Source: Lysobacter soyae
GTDB lineage: Bacteria > Pseudomonadota > Gammaproteobacteria > Xanthomonadales > Xanthomonadaceae
DNA length: 64,000 nucleotides
Reading direction: 5' to 3'
Assembly (NCBI RefSeq): GCF_019551435.1
Contig: NZ_CP080544.1
Coordinates: 1 to 64,000 of the forward strand
In this document: piece after piece, positions 40,567-51,681 of the stretch
Position numbering within the stretch: position 1 is the first letter of the stretch
How the letters are laid out: every line of letters begins with the position of its first letter
Position numbers and translations under genes: made by a program
The notes under the pieces: generated by a model
What the model saw: only the letters and a program-made list of their open reading frames with translations
What the model was told of the DNA's origin: nothing
Databases searched by the model: none

Positions 40567-41034
40567 ATGTTGCACGTCATCCTCCACCAGCCCGAAATTC
40601 CGCCCAATACCGGCAATGTGATCCGGCTCTGTGCCAACACCGGCGCGCAGTTGCATCTGGTCGAACCGCTGGGCTTCAAGATCGACGACAAGCAGATGCG
40701 TCGGGCAGGTTTGGACTATCACGAATTCGCCCGGATGCAAGTCCACCCGGATTTGGCAACGGCGCTGGCCGTGATCGCGCCGCCCCGACTGTTCGCCCTC
40801 AGCACACGTGGCCGGGCGCGCTACGACCAGGTGGTGTGGCAGCCGGGCGATGCGGTCTTGTTCGGCAGTGAGACGGCCGGATTGCCGCAGGCGGTGCTGG
40901 ACAGCCTGCCCGCCGAGCAGCGTTTGCGCGTGCCGATGCGCCCCGACAACCGCAGCCTGAACTTGTCGAACACCGTGGCCGTGGTGGTGTTCGAAGCTTG
41001 GCGGCAAATGGGCTTCGAAGGCGCCGCAATCTGA
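40567..41034 (+). CDS. trmL: tRNA (cytidine/uridine-34 2'-O)-methyltransferase TrmL
   Basis: The protein has 155 residues, SPOUT fold. Motifs: [19 protein letters not shown] at the start, FGSETAGLP in the middle and [23 protein letters not shown] at the trefoil knot. It methylates the wobble ribose in tRNA-Leu species. It is divergent from the M16 gene and convergent with trpA. Confidence 0.95.
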
Positions 41035-41249: not shown

Positions 41250-41993
41250 TTATTCCAAGAGCGTGGCAAAGGCTGCGGCCGGCGAGTCGCTTACGGCCAA
41301 CTGTTTGACCAAGGCCGAGCCGACAATTGGAACCACACCCATGGCGCGCACACGCGCCAAACTCTGCGCATCGCCGAGGCCGAAGCCGACGGCCAGCGGT
41401 CGTGTGGTCAGGGTTTGCAGGTCGGCCACGCGCGTCGCGATGTCGTCGAATTGGTGGGTGTTGTCACCGGTGATGCCAAGCCGCGCCACGACATAGGCGA
41501 AACGTTGTGCAAAGGGCGCGACAGCGCCCGGATCGGCGCGTTCTTCCAACAACTGTCGGGCACGTTCGAGCGAGGTGGTGGGCGTCAACAGCGGCACCAG
41601 CGGATAGCCGGCCGCTCGCAGTGCTTCTTCGAATGCCGGCTCTTCACCGAAGGGCAGATCGACCACCAGTAATGCGCGTACGCGCGTCGGACGCAGCAGT
41701 GCTAACAAGTCATTCAAGCCGACTTGCAACAAGGGATTGAGATAGCTGAAGAGAATGATGTCCGGCGTGTCTTCAACGCCGGCGAGCCCCTCCAGCACAT
41801 TGCGCAAGGTGGTGCCGTTGTCGATCGCCGCATGCGCGGCCGCTTGCAGCACCGGGCCGTCGGCGATCGGGTCGGAATGCGGAATACCGAGTTCGATGGC
41901 CGCGATGCCGCAGGCTTTGGCCGCAGCGAGTTGTTCAATATGTGCATCGCGCGACGGATATCCCGCCATGATGAAAGGCAGCAAGGCGCTCAT
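41250..41993 (-). CDS. trpA: Tryptophan synthase alpha chain
   Basis: The protein has 247 residues. It splits indole-3-glycerol phosphate to indole. Marks: PFIMAGYPSRDAHIEQL, ELGIPHSDPIADGPVLQAA (catalytic Glu region) and the late VGFGLGDAQSLARV. Last gene of the operon; its start overlaps the trpB stop by four bases. Confidence 0.96.
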   Translation of the reverse strand: MSALLPFIMAGYPSRDAHIEQLAAAKACGIAAIELGIPHSDPIADGPVLQAAAHAAIDNGTTLRNVLEGLAGVEDTPDIILFSYLNPLLQVGLNDLLALLRPTRVRALLVVDLPFGEEPAFEEALRAAGYPLVPLLTPTTSLERARQLLEERADPGAVAPFAQRFAYVVARLGITGDNTHQFDDIATRVADLQTLTTRPLAVGFGLGDAQSLARVRAMGVVPIVGSALVKQLAVSDSPAAAFATLLE

Positions 41994-43174
41994 TGCAAAC
42001 CTCCGATGCGTGATTGATAGGTGCCAAGGTCTTTGTCACCGCGCCCGGACAGGCCGAGCAGCACGTCGGACACGCCCTCGTCGGCAAGTCGTTGCAGCAT
42101 GGCCAGCGCGTGGCTGGATTCCAATGCCGGCAGGATGCCTTCCAAGGCACAGAGTTGTTGTGCCGCGGCCAAGGCTTGCGCATCGCTCGCGCGCCACACT
42201 TCAATGCGGCCATCGCGCGCATGCGCGGCAATTTCCGGCCCGAGTGCGGGGTAGTCGAGACCGGCACTGACCGAGGCGGTTTCCGCGGTATGGCCATAGG
42301 CGTTTTGCAGCAGCAGGGTTTTGCAGCCATGCAAGACACCGACGGTGCCGCCATCCAAACGCGCCGCGTGTTCGCCCAGGGCCGTGCCATGTCCGCCGGC
42401 TTCGACGGCAATGCGGCGCACGTCGTCGTCGATGAAAGGCATCAACAGGCCGCTGCTGTTACTCCCGCCGCCGACACAAGCGATCACCGCTTGCGGCAAC
42501 TCGCCGACACGTTGCACGTACTGCGCCCGCGCTTCTTCGCCGATCACCGTTTGCAGGCTGCGCACGATGGTGGGGAAAGGATGCGGACCGAGCGCGCTGC
42601 CGAGAATGTAGTGCGCCACATCGCAACGCGCCGCCCAGGCACGCAACGCGGCATTCACCGCTTCCTTCAAGGTGCCCTGCCCGCTTTCGACGCCGACCAC
42701 CGTCGCGCCGAACATGCGCATGCGTGCCACGTTGGGCGCTTGTCGCGCCATATCGGTGACCCCCATGTACACCGTGCAAGGCAACCCCAAGCGCGCGCAC
42801 GCGGCCGCCGTGGCAACACCGTGTTGGCCTGCACCGGTTTCCGCGATGATCTCCTTCTTGCCCATGCGCAGGGCAAGCAGCGCCTGACCCACGGCATTGT
42901 TGATCTTGTGCGCGCCGGTGTGACATTGGTCTTCGCGCTTCAAGAACAAACGCTTCAAGCCGACGGCTTGCGCCAAACGAGGCGCCTCGGTCAGCGCTGT
43001 CGGCCGGCCGACGAAATCACGCAGCTGCGCGAGCAGCGTCGTTTTGAATGCGGGATCGGCCATGGCCCCGATGAAGGCTTGCTCGAGTTCCAGCAAGGGG
43101 GTCATCAAGGTTTCCGGCGCGTAGCAACCACCGAATTGGTCGCTGCCGAAGCGGGTGGGAAGTTCAAAGTGCAT
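41990..43174 (-). CDS. trpB: Tryptophan synthase beta chain
   Basis: The protein has 394 residues from the ATG at 43174. The pyridoxal-phosphate Lys is in HTGAHKINNAVGQ; ETGAGQHGVATA and CVGGGSNSSGLLMPF bind substrate and cofactor phosphate. It makes tryptophan from indole and serine. The start overlaps the trpF stop by 11 bases. Confidence 0.97.
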   Translation of the reverse strand: MHFELPTRFGSDQFGGCYAPETLMTPLLELEQAFIGAMADPAFKTTLLAQLRDFVGRPTALTEAPRLAQAVGLKRLFLKREDQCHTGAHKINNAVGQALLALRMGKKEIIAETGAGQHGVATAAACARLGLPCTVYMGVTDMARQAPNVARMRMFGATVVGVESGQGTLKEAVNAALRAWAARCDVAHYILGSALGPHPFPTIVRSLQTVIGEEARAQYVQRVGELPQAVIACVGGGSNSSGLLMPFIDDDVRRIAVEAGGHGTALGEHAARLDGGTVGVLHGCKTLLLQNAYGHTAETASVSAGLDYPALGPEIAAHARDGRIEVWRASDAQALAAAQQLCALEGILPALESSHALAMLQRLADEGVSDVLLGLSGRGDKDLGTYQSRIGGLQ

Positions 43175-43787
43175 AGTCGTGGACCTTGCTAACAAATTGA
43201 TTTAGGCGATGGGCATCCTTGATGCCCGGCGAAGACTCGAGACGGCTGGCGGCATCAAAGCCCGCCAAGTGTTTCAGGGCTTCGGTGGGAAGCTGTGCGA
43301 CGCGTGATGCGATGGCGTCTGCGTCCATGCCGCCGGCCAGCAAATGCGGACCCGGTGGTGGATGGGCGGCGGCATGCGCTTGACCGGAGCCGCCATGCAC
43401 GCCGGTTTGCGCGCGGGCGGTTTCCCAGATGTAAAGATCTGCAGGGATCGGCGCTTGATCCGGCACATCCGGCCAAGGCAGCAGGACTTCATAACCGGCT
43501 GCTTGCAAGGCGCGCACGCCGTCGGCGCGGCAGGCGTCCGGCAAATAAGGCTGTACACGAGTGAGCGGAAGTTGCCGCAGTTGTTGCAGGATGTCGTCCG
43601 GCTGTTCCGCCACCATCACCAAGACGCCTGCCGAACCGGCCAAGGGCGCGAGCGTGGTGAGCGCGTCGCAGTGTCGGGGACTTTGCGGGTAATGCACGAA
43701 GCCGATCAGATCGGCGCCGGCACTGCGGGCGACGGCCACATCTTCCGCGCGTGTGAGGCCGCAGACTTTGGCGCGCATCCGACTCAT
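43164..43787 (-). CDS. trpF: Phosphoribosylanthranilate isomerase
   Basis: The protein has 207 residues. Marks: KVCGLTRAEDV with the catalytic Cys, DLIGFVHYPQSPRHCD, and the late LLAGGMDADAIASRV and GFDAASRLESSPGIKDA. It converts PRA to CdRP. It stands alone, not fused to trpC as in enteric bacteria. The start overlaps trpC. Confidence 0.95.
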   Translation of the reverse strand: MSRMRAKVCGLTRAEDVAVARSAGADLIGFVHYPQSPRHCDALTTLAPLAGSAGVLVMVAEQPDDILQQLRQLPLTRVQPYLPDACRADGVRALQAAGYEVLLPWPDVPDQAPIPADLYIWETARAQTGVHGGSGQAHAAAHPPPGPHLLAGGMDADAIASRVAQLPTEALKHLAGFDAASRLESSPGIKDAHRLNQFVSKVHDYAL

Positions 43788-44596
43788 GCGTAAGCCGCTT
43801 CGAGGAACGCGCGCGGGTTGTCGCTGCGCATCAAGGCTTCGCCGATCAACACCGCATCAAAACCTTGCGCGAACGCATCCTTGATATCTTGCGGCTCACG
43901 CAAACCGGATTCGCGAATCAGCAAGGCGTCGGGAAATGCGTCGCGCAATGGCGATGCATCGGGGCTGCCGATGGCGAAGCTCGCCAGATCACGCGCATTG
44001 ATGCCGATGAGTTGCGCACCGGCGTCGCGGGCGAAAGCGATTTCGCCCAGATCATGCAATTCGATCAACGGCTCGAGGCCGGCCTGGCGTGCGGCCGCGG
44101 CAAACTGCGCCGTGTAGCCTTTCAGCACGCGCGCGATCAAGAGCACGGCTTCGGCGCCGCTGGCTTGTGCTTCTTGCAGATGCGCGGCGCCCATCACGAA
44201 GCCTTTGTAAATGCGTGGCATTCCATAGCGTGCCGCGGCACGCACGTCTTCCACGCTGCCTTGAAACAGCGCCGGCTCGGCCAATACCGATACGCAAGCG
44301 GCGCCACCGGCTTGATAGGCGCGCAATTGTGTATCGAAGTCGCGGTCTGCGGCAAAGGCGCCGAGCGACGGCGAGGCGCGTTTGAATTCCGCGATCACGG
44401 CACCTCCGCGGCGTTGTTTCGCGTCTTGCAATGCGGCGGCAAAACGTCCTGCGCAAGGCCGCGCTTCCAAAGCTGCCGGTTCGGTCTCCTTCATGCGTTG
44501 CGCTTCGGACAAGACCACGCGTCCCAGGTGTGTGCTGCCATCCAAACCGGCGATGGCCAGCACTTGCTCCAATTCGGGCAAATCGAAATCACGCAT
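43784..44596 (-). CDS. trpC: Indole-3-glycerol phosphate synthase
   Basis: The protein has 270 residues. Motifs: AVIAEFKRASPSLGAFA with the catalytic Lys, ACVSVLAEPALFQGSVEDV, LIGINARDLASF and LIRESGLREPQDI. It closes the indole ring. It overlaps trpF by ATGA-type coupling and trpD by eight bases. Confidence 0.96.
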   Translation of the reverse strand: MRDFDLPELEQVLAIAGLDGSTHLGRVVLSEAQRMKETEPAALEARPCAGRFAAALQDAKQRRGGAVIAEFKRASPSLGAFAADRDFDTQLRAYQAGGAACVSVLAEPALFQGSVEDVRAAARYGMPRIYKGFVMGAAHLQEAQASGAEAVLLIARVLKGYTAQFAAAARQAGLEPLIELHDLGEIAFARDAGAQLIGINARDLASFAIGSPDASPLRDAFPDALLIRESGLREPQDIKDAFAQGFDAVLIGEALMRSDNPRAFLEAAYA

Positions 44597-45620
44597 GAGG
44601 CATCTCCCGTTGGAACGGCGCCGTGAACCCGCGCTTCAATGTCTGACGTGACTCTTGCAAGCTGTCCTGGAGTGCATCCAAGGATTGGTCCCGATGCAAC
44701 AGCAGGCCCAAGGCGGATTGCAAGGCGACGGCATCGGCCACATCGGCATTGAAGTCCGGATGGGATTCACCTTCAAGCAAACCAGCGGCGACGCGAATCG
44801 CTTCGTCTTTGCTCTCGACGCGCAGGGCGTGTTGGGCGGGCATGACCATGCCCAGTTCCCTCGGCACCAACGTTTTTTCTTCGAACACGCGGTCGCCGCG
44901 CACTTCGACGACAAAGCTCGGCCCTTCGATCGAGAGTTCATCCATGCCGCGACCCTCCGCCGACAAACCGTGCACAACGAATGCGCGTTCGATGCCTTGC
45001 ATGGCCAGCGCCTGCGCCATCGGTTGCATCAAACTGCGACGGCTCACGCCGAGGACTTGCAAGGGCGGGCGCGCCGGATTCAACAGCGGCCCAAGCACAT
45101 TGAAGATGGTCGGGATGCCCAAGCGGCTGCGGATCTCTTTCAAGCGGCCGAGCAAAGGGTGGTAGCGCGGTGCGAACAAAAAGGCGAAACGGTGTTGCAC
45201 CAAATCTTCCGCCAGCGCCTGCGGCGTGCGATCCAGTTGATAGCCCAGACCTTCCAACACATCAGCGCTGCCGCACAAGGATGTCGCGGCACGGTTGCCG
45301 TGTTTGGCGACCGGCACACCCAAATGTGCGAGCAGCAGTGCGGCGAGCGTGCTGAGATTTGCCGTGCTCGCACCGTCACCGCCGGTGCCACAGGTATCGA
45401 GCACGCGCAGGCCGGGACGCTCGAAAGTTTGCGCGACTTTCAGCAGTTCATCAGCGAAGGCATAGAGCTCTTCGGCGCGCGGTTCGCGTTGCGCCATGAG
45501 CGCCAGACAGGCGCCGACCAACAACGGATCGGTGTCCTGATCGATGTACATGCGCATCAATTCCGCCGCGGTCTGCGCGGGCAAAGGCTGGATCGGGTTG
45601 TGTGTGGTCAACAAAGTCAT
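44589..45620 (-). CDS. trpD: Anthranilate phosphoribosyltransferase
   Basis: The protein has 343 residues from the ATG at 45620. The PRPP loop is LDTCGTGGDGASTANLSTL; KHGNRAATSLCGSADVLEGLG follows. It joins anthranilate to PRPP. The longer upstream frame only shadows trpG. The ATG overlaps the trpG stop by four bases. Confidence 0.96.
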   Translation of the reverse strand: MTLLTTHNPIQPLPAQTAAELMRMYIDQDTDPLLVGACLALMAQREPRAEELYAFADELLKVAQTFERPGLRVLDTCGTGGDGASTANLSTLAALLLAHLGVPVAKHGNRAATSLCGSADVLEGLGYQLDRTPQALAEDLVQHRFAFLFAPRYHPLLGRLKEIRSRLGIPTIFNVLGPLLNPARPPLQVLGVSRRSLMQPMAQALAMQGIERAFVVHGLSAEGRGMDELSIEGPSFVVEVRGDRVFEEKTLVPRELGMVMPAQHALRVESKDEAIRVAAGLLEGESHPDFNADVADAVALQSALGLLLHRDQSLDALQDSLQESRQTLKRGFTAPFQREMPHA

Positions 45621-46192
45621 GCGTGAATTCCGGACAAACGTAGGAAGTTGCGGAGGAGCTGTGGCCCATCCGGGGTGAGGATGCTTTCGGGGTGGAACTG
45701 CACGCCCCAGCGCGGCAGCTGCACATGTTCGACCGCCATGATTTCGCCCGCGTCGGTGTGGGCGGTGGCACGCCAACACGCGGGCAAGGTGGTCGGTTCG
45801 GCAATCAAGCTGTGATACCGGCCGACTTGCATGGGCTGTGGCAAGCCTGCGAAGAGACCGCTGCCGGCGTGCGTGACCGGCGTGCGTTCGCCATGCAGGG
45901 GCTCGCGCGCGTGCGTCACTTTGCCGCCTGCGCCGGCCACCAAGGCCTGTTGCCCGAGGCAGACACCGAGCACAGGCGTGGTGATATCGCTAGCCGCCAC
46001 TTGCATATGTGGCGCGCAATCTTCCGGGCGACCCGGACCGGGCGAGAGCACGATTGCGTCAGGTGCCCGCGCTTGGATGCCGGCCAAATCGATCGCATCA
46101 AAGCGGACGACCTCGACCTCGCTGCCGATCATTTGAAAGGCCTGCACCAGGTTGTAAGTGAAACTGTCGAGCGCGTCGATGAGCAGGATCAT
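45617..46192 (-). CDS. trpG: Anthranilate synthase component II (glutamine amidotransferase)
   Basis: The protein has 191 residues from the ATG at 46192. Class I amidotransferase triad: Cys in GVCLGQQALV, His and Glu in QFHPESILT. It feeds ammonia to TrpE. In many proteobacteria it also serves folate synthesis (pabA). It overlaps trpE by four bases. Confidence 0.95.
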   Translation of the reverse strand: MILLIDALDSFTYNLVQAFQMIGSEVEVVRFDAIDLAGIQARAPDAIVLSPGPGRPEDCAPHMQVAASDITTPVLGVCLGQQALVAGAGGKVTHAREPLHGERTPVTHAGSGLFAGLPQPMQVGRYHSLIAEPTTLPACWRATAHTDAGEIMAVEHVQLPRWGVQFHPESILTPDGPQLLRNFLRLSGIHA

Positions 46193-47586
46193 GCGTTCGC
46201 CTCCTTCATCAAGTGCGTGAGCGACACGCCGAGCGCCTGTGCCGGCGCGGCCATTTTGTGCAGGGTTTCCAAGTATTCGGATTCGGGATCGCTGGCGCGG
46301 ACGATGCCGGCACCGGCCTGCAGCCATGCGCTGCCGTTGGCATAGATCGCCGTGCGCAGGATCAAGGCACTGTCGAGTGCACCATCCGGCGACAGGCGAA
46401 TCAACGCGCCGCCATAGGGGCCGCGTGCGTCGTCTTCCATTTCGCGGATGCGTTGCGCCGCGCGGATCTTCGGTGCACCGCTGACGGTCCCGGCCGGAAA
46501 CGCCGAGGCCAACACGTCGAGTGCGTCTAACGCGGGTTGGATGCGTGCTTTGACGGTGGTGGTGATGTGCAACACGTGACTGGTGCGTTGCAGGGCCAAC
46601 GGTTTTTCCACGCGGACGCCGCCGGGAATCGCCACGCGACCGAGATCGTTGCGGGCGAGGTCGACCAACATTTGATGTTCGGCCAGTTCTTTCTTGTCGG
46701 CGACGAGTGCTTCGAAACGTTGCTGGTCTTCTTCGACCGATTCGCCACGGGTGACGGTGCCGGCAATCGGCAAAGTTTCGGCTTCACCATCGGCAACACG
46801 CACCAACATTTCGGGCGAAGCACCGGCTAGGGAAATCTCGTGCCACTCCATGAGGAAGCCGTATGGACTTGGATTGAGGCGACGCATGCGGCGATACGCG
46901 GTCAACGGTGACGGCGGTGCATCGACACGCAAGCGCTGGCTCGGTACCAGTTGATAAACGTCGCCTTCTTTGATGCGTTGCAATGTGTTTGCCACGCGTT
47001 GCTTGAAGTCTTCGCGCGAGATCAAGGCGTGCACGGTCGGTTGTCCCACCTCCTCGCGCGGCAACACCGGTTGATACAGCGCGATGCGCATTTGCCGGAT
47101 CTTTTCGCGCGCGTCGTCGAGGGAGTCGGCACGCACCTGCAATTCCGCGACTTGATGCAGGTGATCAAACACCACAGCGGCATCGAAGCGCTTGGCATGC
47201 ACGCTGGGCAAACCGAAGCCGTTCTTGGCCGGAAAACCGATGCTGGCTTCGTTGGCCGCCAAAGCCTCGAAGCCCACGTAGCCGGCGATACCGACACCGA
47301 CCGGCATCGCCGAACGCGTGTCCTCCGGCAACTCGGAGTCTTCCATCAAGCTGCCGCGCGACGGGTCGGGGGTGCCCGCCAACGCACGTAGTGCCTCGAC
47401 CCAACCGCGCTCACCGACGCCGAGCCGGACTTCACCCGCGCCCTCGAGCAACACAAAGCTATGCCGGCCCACACGCTCGCCTTGGTCGGCACTTTCCAGC
47501 AGCAGGCTGGCGCCGTGCGAACGCAAGGCGAGATAGGTCCCCAAGGGCGTGATCAGGTCGGCGGGGAGTCGATAGCGCAGCAGCAT
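46189..47586 (-). CDS. trpE: Anthranilate synthase component I
   Basis: The protein has 465 residues. The chorismate-binding domain shows MEWHEISLAGASPEMLVRV, PIAGTVTRGE, HQMLVDLARNDLGRV, FPAGTVSGAPKIRA and the end GAGIVRASDPESEY. An LLLESA-type N-terminal segment (SLLLESADQGER) is the tryptophan feedback site. First structural gene of the operon, behind the leader and attenuator. Confidence 0.96.
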   Translation of the reverse strand: MLLRYRLPADLITPLGTYLALRSHGASLLLESADQGERVGRHSFVLLEGAGEVRLGVGERGWVEALRALAGTPDPSRGSLMEDSELPEDTRSAMPVGVGIAGYVGFEALAANEASIGFPAKNGFGLPSVHAKRFDAAVVFDHLHQVAELQVRADSLDDAREKIRQMRIALYQPVLPREEVGQPTVHALISREDFKQRVANTLQRIKEGDVYQLVPSQRLRVDAPPSPLTAYRRMRRLNPSPYGFLMEWHEISLAGASPEMLVRVADGEAETLPIAGTVTRGESVEEDQQRFEALVADKKELAEHQMLVDLARNDLGRVAIPGGVRVEKPLALQRTSHVLHITTTVKARIQPALDALDVLASAFPAGTVSGAPKIRAAQRIREMEDDARGPYGGALIRLSPDGALDSALILRTAIYANGSAWLQAGAGIVRASDPESEYLETLHKMAAPAQALGVSLTHLMKEANA

Positions 47587-47619
47587 GGCGTTCCTTCAAG
47601 TAATTTCAAGCAATAAAAA

Positions 47620-47642
47620 AGCCCGGTCTTTTGGACCGGGCT
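47620..47642 (-). terminator. trp operon attenuator terminator
   Basis: On the minus strand AGCCCGGTC-CAAAA-GACCGGGCT is followed by a T run, about 35 bases before trpE. The segment CCCGAGCC overlapping its 5' arm can pair instead with GGCTCGGG (about 47687-47694) just past the leader's Trp codons, which would block the terminator. Confidence 0.85.
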
Positions 47643-47667
47643 CGGGAGGTGTTGAACAAGCGGGCGC

Positions 47668-47760
47668 TCAAGCGCCTGCCGAAGCCCCCGAGCCACAACG
47701 CCACCAACCGCGCAGTGCTGCGCTGTTTGCGAGGGTTCCGTGGTTGCAGAGGGAGTTCAT
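47668..47760 (-). CDS. trpL: trp operon leader peptide
   Basis: A 30-residue open frame, ATG at 47760 and TGA at 47668-47670, with two tandem tryptophan codons (TGG TGG at 47701-47706) in the stretch LRGWWRCGSG. It ends 26 bases before the attenuator hairpin. Ribosome stalling at the Trp codons when charged tRNA is scarce would favour read-through into trpE. An in-frame ATG at 47769 overlaps the gpsA stop and could extend it by three residues. Confidence 0.8.
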   Translation of the reverse strand: MNSLCNHGTLANSAALRGWWRCGSGASAGA

Positions 47761-47768
47761 GTCGTGCA

Positions 47769-48827
47769 TCAAACCGCAGAGGCGGCAGGTTTGTCAACCT
47801 GGCCTTGGAAAAGTGTTTCCGGATATTCGGGTTTTTGATCGCGCGACAGCAATCGTTGCAGGCCTTCGACCGGTGAACACTCACCATGCAGAACGGCTTG
47901 CACGCCTGCGGTGATCGGCAGATCGATGCCTTCACGTTGCGCGAGACGCATCACTTCGTCGGCGGTTTGAATGGATTCGACCACTTGGCCGATTTCACGC
48001 ACGGCCTCTTCGATGGATTTTCCGCGACCGATGGCAAGACCGAGCCTGCGGTTGCGCGAGAGATCACCGGTGCAGGTCAGTACCAAATCGCCGAGGCCGG
48101 CGAGGCCCATCAAGGTTTCCGGTTTGGCACCGATGGCCGCGGCCAAACGCAGCATTTCATTCAAGCCACGCGTAATCAAACCGGCACGCGCGTTAAAGCC
48201 GAGATTCATGCCATCGGACACACCGGTGGCCACGGCGAGTACGTTCTTCATCGCACCGCCAAGCTCAGCGCCTTTCATGTCATCGCCGGTATAGGCGCGG
48301 AAATCACTGCCGTGCAAGATCTCTGCGACCTGTTGGGCAAAGGCCTCGTCACCATGCACCGTCAGTGCGGTGGGCAGACCTTCGGCAACTTCTTTGGCGA
48401 ACGACGGGCCGGTGACCACTGCCAGCGGCACATCGGCACCGACCACAGACTCCGCCACTTCATGCAAGAAGCGACCGCTGCCCGGCTCGAAACCTTTGGT
48501 GGCCCAAGCCACGCCGGTGTCCGCTTTGCGATGCGGCGCCAAGGCGTGCAAGGTTTCCGCGAATGCGTGCGAGGGCACCACGACCAATAACAAATCGGCC
48601 TGGGCGACGCTGTGTTCGAAATCGGTACTGGCACGCAGATTCGACGGCAGCACGATGCCCGGCAAGTAACGCGGGTTCTCGTGCCGACGATCGATGGCAT
48701 CGATGATGGTGGCATCCCGTCCCCAGAGGGTGACGGGATGACCGTGCCGCGCAATCAACGCGGCGAGTGCCGTGCCCCACGAACCGGCACCGAGGACGGT
48801 GATGCGGGGCGCGTTTTCCGCCGTCAT
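47769..48827 (-). CDS. gpsA: NAD(P)H-dependent glycerol-3-phosphate dehydrogenase
   Basis: The protein has 352 residues. It makes sn-glycerol 3-phosphate for phospholipids. Marks: the Rossmann [18 protein letters not shown], the catalytic Lys in [30 protein letters not shown] and [21 protein letters not shown]. It follows secB by three bases, as in many gammaproteobacteria. Confidence 0.96.
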
Positions 48828-48830
48828 GGA

Positions 48831-49349
48831 TCAGGCGTTTCCTGCGGTCTCCGTGCCGCTGGCCAAAGCCGGGGCACCTTCCGCGCGTTGTTGCAAGCTT
48901 TGGGCGTACAGCGCGTCGAAGTTGATCGGCTGCATGTAGAACGGCGGGAAGCCACCGGCGACGATCATGTCGGAGATGGATTGACGCGCGTACGGGTACA
49001 GGATGTTCGGGCAGTGGGCGCCGAGCATGGCGTCGAGGCCTTGGGCGTCGAAACCTTGCAGGCCGAAGATACCGGCTTGTTGGACTTCGGCGAGGTAGGC
49101 GTTCTTGCCGTTCATCGTGCAGGTGATGGTGACCGTGAGGACCACTTCGTACACGTTTTCAGCAATTTGACCCATGCGCTGCGCCAGGTTCATTTGCAGT
49201 TCCGGCTGGCCTTGTTCGGTGAACACTTGCGGCGCATTCGGCACTTCGAACGAGATGTCGCGGGTGTAGATCTTTTCGATCATGAAGGTCGCGCCGGTTT
49301 CTTCTGCCGGGGCTTCTGCGCCGTTCAAGGCGATGTTTTCGTCGGACAT
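48831..49349 (-). CDS. secB: Protein-export chaperone SecB
   Basis: The protein has 172 residues. The SecB core is intact: [52 protein letters not shown] and [29 protein letters not shown]. It keeps precursors unfolded for SecA. An Ala-rich tail follows the core. Confidence 0.97.
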
Positions 49350-49431
49350 GTTCGTTCCTGATTGCTTGTATTGGGTGAAAGTCGGGATTATCGCATGGGG
49401 CGCTTTTGCGCCCGCTTTTCGTAACTTGGGG

Positions 49432-49875
49432 TCAGTTACGGCCTTTTACCAGTGGCAAATCGGCGCTTTGCCACGCGCCGATGCCGCCGTCGAGCACGGA
49501 GACGTGCTTGAAGCCGGCTTTGACCAAGCGCTTGGCGGCGTCCGACGCAGTGTTGCCGGCTTTGCACACCAGCACGATCGGCAGATCTTTGACGTTGGCA
49601 AGCAGCTTGTTTTCCGGGTCAAATTGGTTCATTTGCACGTTTTTCGCGCCCGAAATGTGCCCTGCTTGAAAGTCGCTGGCCGAGCGCAAATCCACCACCA
49701 AGGCGTTCTCATGATTCATGAGACGGGTCATGGTGGCCGGATTGATGCCCTTGAAACCTTGGAACAGGCGCATGATCTCGGTCACGATCAGGGCCAAGGT
49801 GAGGCCTACGAAGGCCATCGAAAGGAGCGCATTGCGCCCCGCAAAATCTATGATTTCTTGCACGTTTTCCGCCAA
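49432..49875 (-). CDS. Membrane-anchored rhodanese-domain protein (YibN-like)
   Basis: The protein has 147 residues. One N-terminal helix (about 17-36) precedes a rhodanese domain with active-site Cys in [16 protein letters not shown] and the end [12 protein letters not shown]. YibN-like proteins sit upstream of secB in many gammaproteobacteria; the substrate is unknown. Confidence 0.9.
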
Positions 49876-50379: not shown

Positions 50380-50829
50380 TTACTTGATGATCGCGGCGTA
50401 TACCGCCGACATCACCGCGCCGGTAATGCCGTCGGTGCCTTCGATTTTTGCCTCGGTGCACACGCGCACCTTGCCGCGGCGACGCAATTGCAGGGCCAGG
50501 CTTTCGAATGAATTGGAGGCAAGCCACACCGTTGCGGTCATGTCGCTTGTCACGGTGCGGCTGAAATGCGCGTTGGATTCGGTGACATAGACGTCGGGAA
50601 AGATTTCGCCGTCAATCAGGTTCTGACTGACCAGCAACCAGCCGGCGATGGTCATGAGCGATGTCATCGAACCGCCGAACGCGGTGTTTTTATCGTTCAA
50701 GTTCGCGGCGATCGGCGCGGCAATCTTGAGTTGCCGGCCGTCAAAATCGAGCAACCGTGCCTGCATATGTTGCAAGGGCACCATCGCATGAAAATTGGCC
50801 AGCAATCTCGGGTCGATCTGAACGGTCAC
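50380..50829 (-). CDS. YiiD-type thioesterase (hotdog fold)
   Basis: The protein has 149 residues from a GTG at 50829 with AGAGAG before it. The thioesterase signature is AANLNDKNTAFGGSMTSLMTIAGW. The family is putative acyl-CoA thioesterases. An upstream extension in the same frame overlaps the hemD start and is not used. Confidence 0.85.
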   Translation of the reverse strand: MTVQIDPRLLANFHAMVPLQHMQARLLDFDGRQLKIAAPIAANLNDKNTAFGGSMTSLMTIAGWLLVSQNLIDGEIFPDVYVTESNAHFSRTVTSDMTATVWLASNSFESLALQLRRRGKVRVCTEAKIEGTDGITGAVMSAVYAAIIK

Positions 50830-50865
50830 GCTATGCTCTCTGTTTACCGCATCCACACTCGGACA

Positions 50866-51681
50866 ATGAATCCACAGGCCACTTGGCATTTGCTGTCTAC
50901 ACGCCCCGACGCATTGAATGCCCCGTTGTCTCACGCGGTATCAAGCGCCGGCGGGTCTTTGATTCCGCTGGAATCGATGGACATCGAAACGCGATTGACG
51001 GACGACACTGTAACGCGTTTGCTTTCGGCATTGCGCGAGTCGGTGGTGGTTTTCACCAGCCCGACGGCGGTGAATGTGGCCGCGGAGGTGCTGGATTTGC
51101 CAGGCGCATTGAACCGACGTGTCGTGGTGGCGACCGGCGCGGGCACGCAAAAAACCTTGGTGAATCGCGGTGTGCGCCAGGCGCGCGCGCCCGATCGCAT
51201 GGACAGCGAAGGCATGCTCGGCATGCCGGTGTTGACCGATGTGGATGGTGTCGGCATCGGTTTGGTGACCGGCGAAGGCGGCCGCGGCATGCTACAGCCG
51301 AGATTGATTGCGCGTGGTGCACGCGTCACACGTGCCGATATTTATGCGCGTGTGCCGCGCACGATCAGCGCCGCCGAATGGGATCGCGTGTGCGCGGCAG
51401 AGGGCATGCGGATTCTCGCGATCACCAGTGCTGAAGCGTTCGAAGCCTTACTGCCACAGATACCCGAGGCGGCGGATTTTGCGCAGTGGCGATTTGTGGT
51501 GGGGAGTCAGCGGTTGATGGAGAGCGCCTCACCCGCCCCCTTTGGGGGCACCCTCTCCATCAAAGATGGAGAGGGACAGCTCTCCCTTCTCCACGCGGTG
51601 GAGAAGGGTTTTTGTGCGGTGGCGCGGTCGCCGATGCCTGAGGACTTGGTGCACGCGGCACTCGCGCTATTGGAAACCTAG
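50866..51681 (+). CDS. hemD: Uroporphyrinogen-III synthase, with palindromic insert
   Basis: The protein has 271 residues. It closes the tetrapyrrole ring with inversion of ring D. The family is weakly conserved; marks are LLSTRPDALNAPLSHAV, VVFTSPTAVNVA, VGIGLVTGEGGRGML and TSAEAFEALLP. Codons for about 25 residues before the end derive from three palindromes (51535-51608) that keep the frame. Called by pattern and length. Confidence 0.85.
   Translation: MNPQATWHLLSTRPDALNAPLSHAVSSAGGSLIPLESMDIETRLTDDTVTRLLSALRESVVVFTSPTAVNVAAEVLDLPGALNRRVVVATGAGTQKTLVNRGVRQARAPDRMDSEGMLGMPVLTDVDGVGIGLVTGEGGRGMLQPRLIARGARVTRADIYARVPRTISAAEWDRVCAAEGMRILAITSAEAFEALLPQIPEAADFAQWRFVVGSQRLMESASPAPFGGTLSIKDGEGQLSLLHAVEKGFCAVARSPMPEDLVHAALALLET
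51535..51608. repeat. Three tandem palindromes inside hemD
   Basis: 51535-51549 (GCCCCCTTTGGGGGC), 51551-51575 (CCCTCTCCAT ... ATGGAGAGGG) and 51584-51608 (CCCTTCTCCAC-GCG-GTGGAGAAGGG). They resemble the repeated extragenic palindromes of Xanthomonadaceae, here within a coding frame. Confidence 0.8.

Follow-up and report, generated by a model that had tools for sequence, protein, structure and literature searches.

The short reading frame with two adjacent Trp codons that lies between gpsA and trpE raises the question of whether it belongs to an attenuator that senses tryptophan, and of where transcription of such a leader would begin. Within the window (the whole 64-kb stretch of DNA that was analysed), the minus strand carries, in this order, secB, gpsA, the leader, trpE, trpG, trpD, trpC, trpF, trpB and trpA, after which a trmL-like gene follows on the plus strand. 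The complete set of seven trp genes is present in the order EGDCFBA, as the preliminary description of this locus had read it. The genes are located as follows:

48831..49349 (-): secB, upstream of gpsA
47769..48827 (-): gpsA, glycerol-3-phosphate dehydrogenase
46189..47586 (-): trpE
45617..46192 (-): trpG
44589..45626 (-): trpD
43784..44596 (-): trpC
43164..43787 (-): trpF, with its best NCBIfam match below the family cut-off
41990..43174 (-): trpB
41250..41993 (-): trpA
40567..41034 (+): trmL-like gene, the far border of the operon

In our reading, to which we assign a probability of roughly 0.78, the leader is a ribosome-mediated transcription attenuator of a horizontally acquired trpEGDCFBA operon, and it would act in response to tryptophan. 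The earlier interpretation of the region as having the layout of trp attenuation is supported.

Leader elements and their conservation

The leader holds a frame of 30 codons with TGG TGG, which had been noted from the window sequence and which is conserved in relatives, followed by a terminator and a pairing that competes with it. The sequence of this leader ORF, trpL, is MNSLCNHGTLANSAALRGWWRCGSGASAGA, and the following elements were assigned:

47668..47760 (-): trpL leader ORF, ATG at 47760, stop codon at 47670-47668, 30 codons, predicted to start at or beside the 5' end of the transcript
47701..47706 (-): tandem Trp codons TGG TGG, the single codons at 47706-47704 and 47703-47701
47687..47694 (-): segment 2, GGCTCGGG, 5' arm of the antiterminator, from conservation and folding
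47639..47646 (-): segment 3, CCCGAGCC, common to antiterminator and terminator, from conservation
47619..47643 (-): intrinsic terminator hairpin followed by a T run, from a terminator scan and conservation

The terminator is composed of GAGCCCGGTC-CAAAA-GACCGGGCTT plus the T run. In the antiterminator, GGCTCGGG (47694-47687) pairs with CCCGAGCC (47646-47639), and because the 3' part of CCCGAGCC is also the 5' arm of the terminator, the two helices are mutually exclusive. The 64-kb window contains 23 short ORFs (8-40 codons) with an in-frame TGG TGG; a terminator-like site at most 160 nt past the stop codon is found for two of them, and only trpL precedes trp genes. A 29-codon TGG TGG frame at 51428-51517 (+), after which a weak terminator-like site follows, overlaps an ORF at 50566-51681 (+) and is probably a chance occurrence. 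Taken alone, the leader of the window has an ordinary fold stability (z -0.85, with 40 of 200 shuffles as good). Since this single leader folds no better than its shuffles, the structural case was built on relatives.

The comparison was performed with 34 distinct leaders (14 found by TrpE and 20 newer ones from a scan of Acidobacteriota), namely that of the window and 33 others. All 34 have a length of 29-30 codons, and in 33 of them the Trp codons, two or three in number, fall inside a span of three positions; in L073 these codons are four codons apart. Downstream of the leader, trpE was seen in all 14 TrpE-found cases and in 19 of the other 20. The peptide varies widely except in the Trp cluster and the Arg and Gly-Ser region that follows it. 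Both the terminator and the competing pairing of the preliminary description are there: across the 34 leaders, pairing is kept in 339/339 cells of the 10-bp terminator and in 271/272 of the 8-bp antiterminator, one pair being broken in L118, while control helices that were slid along the leader pair in at most 58% and at most 59% of cells. As features by which membership of the attenuator class was judged, the locus has a short ORF with clustered end-product codons upstream of a biosynthetic operon, as well as a mutually exclusive antiterminator and intrinsic terminator that are predicted and conserved, with thin covariation.

Covariation support is thin for both helices, and it amounts to few events because the leader rows are related to each other. 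Two pairs in the terminator and two in the antiterminator are changed on both sides, and G-U pairs are seen in L114, L116, L122 and L127. In L115, a C-G pair of the core antiterminator helix GGCTCGG:CCGAGCC has become U-A, and the terminator takes an A-U pair at this place. The double-sided changes in the terminator do not exceed those of shuffles (487/500). With all 34 leaders, the antiterminator has a covariation score of 0.143, little above its slid versions (up to 0.131), and with the set of 14 leaders three slid versions (0.144-0.148) outscored it (0.124). An RNAalifold analysis of the 14 leaders returned a local helix within segment 2 and not the pairing of segments 2 and 3 (2:3). This choice was set aside because 2:3 and the terminator cannot share one structure and because 2:3 is kept in 112/112 cells on these 14 leaders.

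The promoter and the end of gpsA

The leader ORF starts 8 nt past the gpsA stop codon TGA (47771-47769), within a few bases as had been stated before. Further upstream, an ATG at 47769-47767 overlaps this stop codon and shares the frame of the leader, which makes 33 codons the longest reading of trpL from an ATG. The elements at this junction are:

47792..47797 (-): -35 hexamer TTGACA, within the last gpsA codons, from the comparison of leaders
47768..47773 (-): -10-like hexamer TTTGAT, 18 nt past the -35, containing the gpsA stop codon, a weak TATAAT match with T at position 2
47767..47769 (-): in-frame ATG further upstream that overlaps the gpsA stop (TGATG), a possible restart site for ribosomes on read-through mRNA
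47772..47807 (-): last 12 gpsA codons, in the place of the S or SRA at which GpsA of relatives ends; the trp -35 lies within them, and they extend into the -10

TTGACA is found 35-39 nt ahead of the leader ATG in 34/34 distinct leaders (14/14 leaders of the first set and 24/24 rows of the second, with four genomes common to both), and its spacing is kept also where no gpsA match flanks the leader (L034-L039 and L062-L073). A TTTCAT-like hexamer was seen by eye in relatives, 17-18 nt past TTGACA and ending 5-9 nt before the ATG. A consensus promoter scan of positions 47400-49500 reported no promoter, TTTGAT included, and the trp promoter was recognised solely through comparison with relatives. 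Because its -10 is without the usual A at position 2, this promoter may be weak or may be read differently. The usual spacing of sigma-70 promoters would put the start of transcription on or next to the leader ATG, and from the spacing of TTGACA we infer a start at or next to this ATG. AGGA, GGAG and GAGG, the three motifs looked for, are absent from the 18 nt that precede the leader ATG in all 34 leaders. With TTGACA only 35-39 nt before the ATG and no motif resembling a Shine-Dalgarno sequence, the leader mRNA is probably leaderless, and trpL would probably be translated as such.

The end of gpsA itself differs between genomes. Among the 16 genomes of the genus with a readable gpsA end (G015, cut by its contig, was left out of this count), 14 encode a GpsA that terminates in TLFS or TLFSRA. 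In the window and G011, TLF is followed by 12 residues, and the DNA coding for them includes the trp -35 and reaches into the -10. G006 and G004 have the operon at another place; their gpsA and trmL-like genes adjoin each other, the aligned ends being separated by 187 and 184 nt, and in the window and G011 the operon sits between these two genes. In G013 a distance of about 7.5 kb, which contains other long ORFs, separates the two genes, and the stretch fetched from G009 stops at the end of the contig, without trmL. In six other carriers (L034-L039), the flanks of the operon gave no match to gpsA or secB. Because gpsA and trmL adjoin in two relatives and no gpsA or secB match flanks the operon in these six carriers, the operon was probably placed between gpsA and trmL in the common ancestor of the window lineage and G011, its promoter being absorbed into gpsA.

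The preliminary description had left two sources for the transcript, a promoter inside gpsA or read-through from secB-gpsA, and of these the promoter in the 3' end of gpsA is favoured by the conservation of TTGACA, with gpsA nearby or without it. That the attenuator acts on secB-gpsA read-through mRNA, without a dedicated promoter and with ribosomes restarting at TGATG, is rather unlikely. The overlap of the gpsA stop with an in-frame leader ATG in both the window and G011 is in line with such read-through, as are the weak -10 and a terminator scan that found none between gpsA and the leader on this strand, but leaders without gpsA in their flanks keep TTGACA and its spacing to the ATG, and the window keeps them although gpsA had to accept them as extra codons. 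Relatives without an upstream gpsA also keep the terminator, the ORF, the Trp codons and the pairing, which makes it hardly credible that the hairpin is a mere terminator of gpsA and the ORF with Trp codons a product of chance. A terminator past gpsA would be expected anyway; yet among the 23 TGG TGG ORFs of the window just one is found in such a setting, and the comparison already contradicts this explanation.

Folding of the switch and comparison with known attenuators

Geometry and folding were analysed for 30 leaders; L114, L116, L118 and L127, in which the exact motifs are absent, were left out. The last Trp codon starts exactly 9 nt before segment 2 in 30/30 leaders, and the stop codon lies 24-30 nt past the start of segment 2, within the antiterminator loop. 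For nascent RNA that reaches the end of segment 3 and is free of ribosomes, folding predicts 2:3 with a probability of 0.93-1.00 (mean 0.99) and upstream pairing of segment 2 with a mean of 0.005. A 1:2 protector hairpin is absent from the predicted nascent RNA in 30/30 leaders. The leader of E. coli, cut after segment 3 and used as the sole control, gave a minimum-energy fold that holds its hairpin, which we take to be the 1:2 hairpin. Since 2:3 forms in the nascent RNA and segment 2 hardly pairs upstream, a default-on switch with two states is predicted. At full-length equilibrium, segment 3 pairs downstream with a probability of 0.57-0.71 in 28 of the 30 leaders (0.67 in the window), 0.71 being the maximum possible; the exceptions are L126 (0.36, with a partial terminator) and L111 (0.04, terminator absent).

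The ribosome was taken to cover 13 nt from its A site. When it is placed on the first Trp codon, segment 2 is nearly all free and 2:3 forms in 14/14 leaders folded. When it is placed on the last Trp codon, a shortened 2:3 survives in seven of the 14 and is lost in five, and for the window and G011 a different pairing register of segment 3 is predicted. Stalling on the first Trp codon is thus predicted to matter most. With this footprint a ribosome at the stop codon would cover segment 2 only partly, so timing must do part of the work.

In the mechanism that we propose, the promoter within the 3' end of gpsA would start transcription on the leader ATG or right beside it, and the 30-codon trpL would be translated as a leaderless mRNA. 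If Trp-tRNA is short, the ribosome would wait on the first Trp codon with nearly all of GGCTCGGG free ahead of it; GGCTCGGG could then pair with CCCGAGCC, which would prevent the terminator and allow trpEGDCFBA to be transcribed. If Trp-tRNA is plentiful, the ribosome would move over GGCTCGGG while segments 3 and 4 are being made, so that the terminator would form and transcription would end about 145 nt from its start. A read-through mRNA from secB-gpsA would meet the same attenuator. Because no 1:2 hairpin is predicted, untranslated leader RNA should read through by default, unlike that of E. coli.

A search of the whole window at Rfam gathering scores gave no match. Against RF00513 (Trp_leader), the leader of the window reached 30.9 bits (E 1e-4 in a 271-base search, model positions 1-100), the gathering score being 41. 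With RF00513, a search of 25,891 bases, made up of the loci of eight relatives plus E. coli, gave a match at E 0.01 for E. coli alone (93.1 bits). The 1:2 protector hairpin is a defining feature of RF00513. The trp attenuator of E. coli (trpL, RF00513) resembles the one described here in its leader peptide with tandem Trp codons, in the opposition of antiterminator and terminator and in its position before the trp operon, whereas here the score is below gathering, no 1:2 hairpin is predicted, the stop codon lies in the antiterminator loop and the start is probably leaderless. In E. coli, moreover, trpGD and trpCF are fused, whereas they are separate genes in the window. The attenuator should work like classical trp attenuation, yet by score it stands outside RF00513.

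Leaderless trp leaders have been described in other bacteria. In Sinorhizobium meliloti, as outlined in PMC7298713, the transcript of trpL-trpE(G) begins at the trpL ATG and can adopt two mutually exclusive structures. It is alike in the leaderless trpL start, which in the window is predicted, and in the two-state switch; it differs in that a 14-aa peptide precedes trpE(G) only, whereas 29-30 codons precede a complete operon here, and the likeness is one of layout. The hosts of the present attenuator are Gammaproteobacteria and Acidobacteriota. The trpL1 leader of Streptomyces lividans encodes a leaderless peptide with a Trp run and is subject to Rho-independent termination, according to the outline in PMC8079986, and differs in its 18-aa peptide before a single trpE. 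Classical trp attenuators with shared complementary triples for antiterminator and terminator have been predicted in Corynebacterium and Streptomyces; the pairing motif of these Actinobacteria is summarised as gGCC-rGCy-GGCC (PMC1262725), compared with GGCTCGG-CCGAGCC here. Among the titles and opening lines of abstracts in the open literature, no account of this attenuator or of the transfer of this operon was found.

Two of these systems suggest other ways in which the leader could work. A classical attenuator of the E. coli type, with a 1:2 hairpin and with termination when the leader is left untranslated, is unlikely. The full-length fold of the window does pair part of the leader region with segment 2, but in nascent RNA 2:3 wins in 30/30 leaders (P at least 0.93), with hardly any upstream pairing of segment 2, and the minimum-energy fold of the E. 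coli control does show its hairpin. By analogy with rnTrpL and peTrpL of Sinorhizobium meliloti, the attenuated RNA of about 145 nt and the peptide of 30 amino acids might also act in trans. The predicted layout matches the one outlined for that species, a small leaderless ORF ending in an intrinsic terminator (PMC7298713), but such a second role is very unlikely, as the peptide varies widely apart from its Trp cluster and the Arg and Gly-Ser stretch after it. The default-on attenuator acting in cis is the reading that we retain.

Distribution and origin of the operon

The TrpE protein of the window was compared with 60 related genomes. It is 85% identical to that of G011, 67-74% to those of G002, G004, G006 (Lysobacter silvestris, now Solilutibacter), G007, G014 and G015, and 38-40% to those of eight more genomes of the same genus. 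The transferred TrpE type is carried by 8 of the 17 genomes of the genus, and in the seven other carriers within the genus all seven trp genes are colinear (split over two contigs in G014). Two of the related genomes (99% complete), G020 and the remaining genus member G001, gave only a PabB-level match to a TrpE query of the transferred type and may be without trpE. A contig search with seven TrpE sequences identified 12 loci: six that are taken to be those of G002, G004, G006, G007, G014 and G015, one of Lysobacteraceae bacterium CU05-9 and five of Acidobacteriota. At the five acidobacterial loci (labelled Acidobacteria, Holophagaceae and Geothrix rubra), TrpE is 63-67% identical, the same leader is present and the gene order is the same as far as the contigs or stretches go.

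A covariance model, R1, was made from the 14 leaders. It scored 112.5 bits on the leader of the window and gave no match on five native trpE loci; on the E. coli leader it matched the terminator part only, with 13.8 bits. A scan of the family with R1 gave a match in 62/247 genomes, six of them above 100 bits. The other 56 matches, with at most 36.4 bits and mostly at the terminator end of the model, were set aside; four of these low-scoring loci (L080, L084, L087 and L095) had no match to the trp, gpsA and secB proteins of the window. Among Acidobacteriota, R1 matched in 23/297 genomes with 57-113 bits. In a draw of 60 Acidobacteriota genomes, which overlaps the 297, a TrpE match at E 1e-60 was obtained in 43. 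Four of these 43 have a TrpE that is 64-67% identical, with an R1 match in 4/4, and the rest range from 35 to 44%.

A TrpE tree was made from 59 rows, 32 of which are of the transferred type and group as a single clade with a branch of 2.09 (support 100/100); L117, L142, L149 and L152, with rows of fewer than 300 residues or short loci, and the partial L072 were left out. Within this clade, a starred group (100/99) unites eight Lysobacteraceae rows, and its neighbour is one acidobacterial row (84/81, unstarred). The remaining acidobacterial rows surround the Lysobacteraceae clade, and the larger clade is mainly acidobacterial. The tree program warns that long branches meet at the base, L145 with this clade among them, so that joins there may be false; the separation of the clade is plain from identity too, at least 63% compared with at most 44% to other TrpE.

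From these sequence comparisons, a transfer of the operon between two bacterial phyla is well supported. The switch, the promoter and the seven genes appear to have travelled together, and Acidobacteriota are the likely donor. No vehicle was found among phage and plasmid records (24 and 677 records), the best TrpE match being below 60% in every record. We lean towards regarding the leader as a member of an uncatalogued attenuator family for which the host supplies only ribosomes, RNA polymerase and Trp-tRNA. A cassette of promoter, leaderless leader, default-on two-state attenuator and seven genes would have moved between Acidobacteriota and Lysobacteraceae. Behind gpsA in the lineage of the window, its -35 and -10 would have become the last codons and the stop of gpsA, and one stretch of DNA would serve as the end of a protein, as a promoter and as a second start of the leader.

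When a biosynthetic operon is transferred, a repressor that is encoded elsewhere stays behind; here the control lies in cis and would travel with the genes. This would explain how the pathway can stand in for the native trpE type and yet still be regulated. For Gammaproteobacteria, the locus could also provide a natural setting in which to test attenuation that would lack a 1:2 hairpin and use a leaderless leader, and it appears to be a case of an incoming promoter that was absorbed into the coding end of a resident gene.

Two further observations concern the family. Lysobacteraceae bacterium CU05-9 (L067), which belongs to another genus, shares operon and leader with the carriers described above; in the tree its TrpE is placed among the rows of the genus, on a long branch and with weak support, which hints at another transfer inside the family. 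The native trpE of Lysobacteraceae is preceded by a Trp-rich ORF of its own, TGGCGATGG, found in 10 of 11 family members (L015, L016, L020, L023, L024, L026, L027, L029, L030 and L031) and in none of three members of other families. Eight of these ten ORFs carry TGGCGATGGTGG (W R W W), and many start shortly past a TA(A/C)AGTAG-like stretch. A scan of 20 regions found no intrinsic terminator. In L030, as seen by eye, the ORF crosses the start of trpE in another frame. The ORF upstream of native trpE may sense tryptophan separately, with a read-out at the level of translation.
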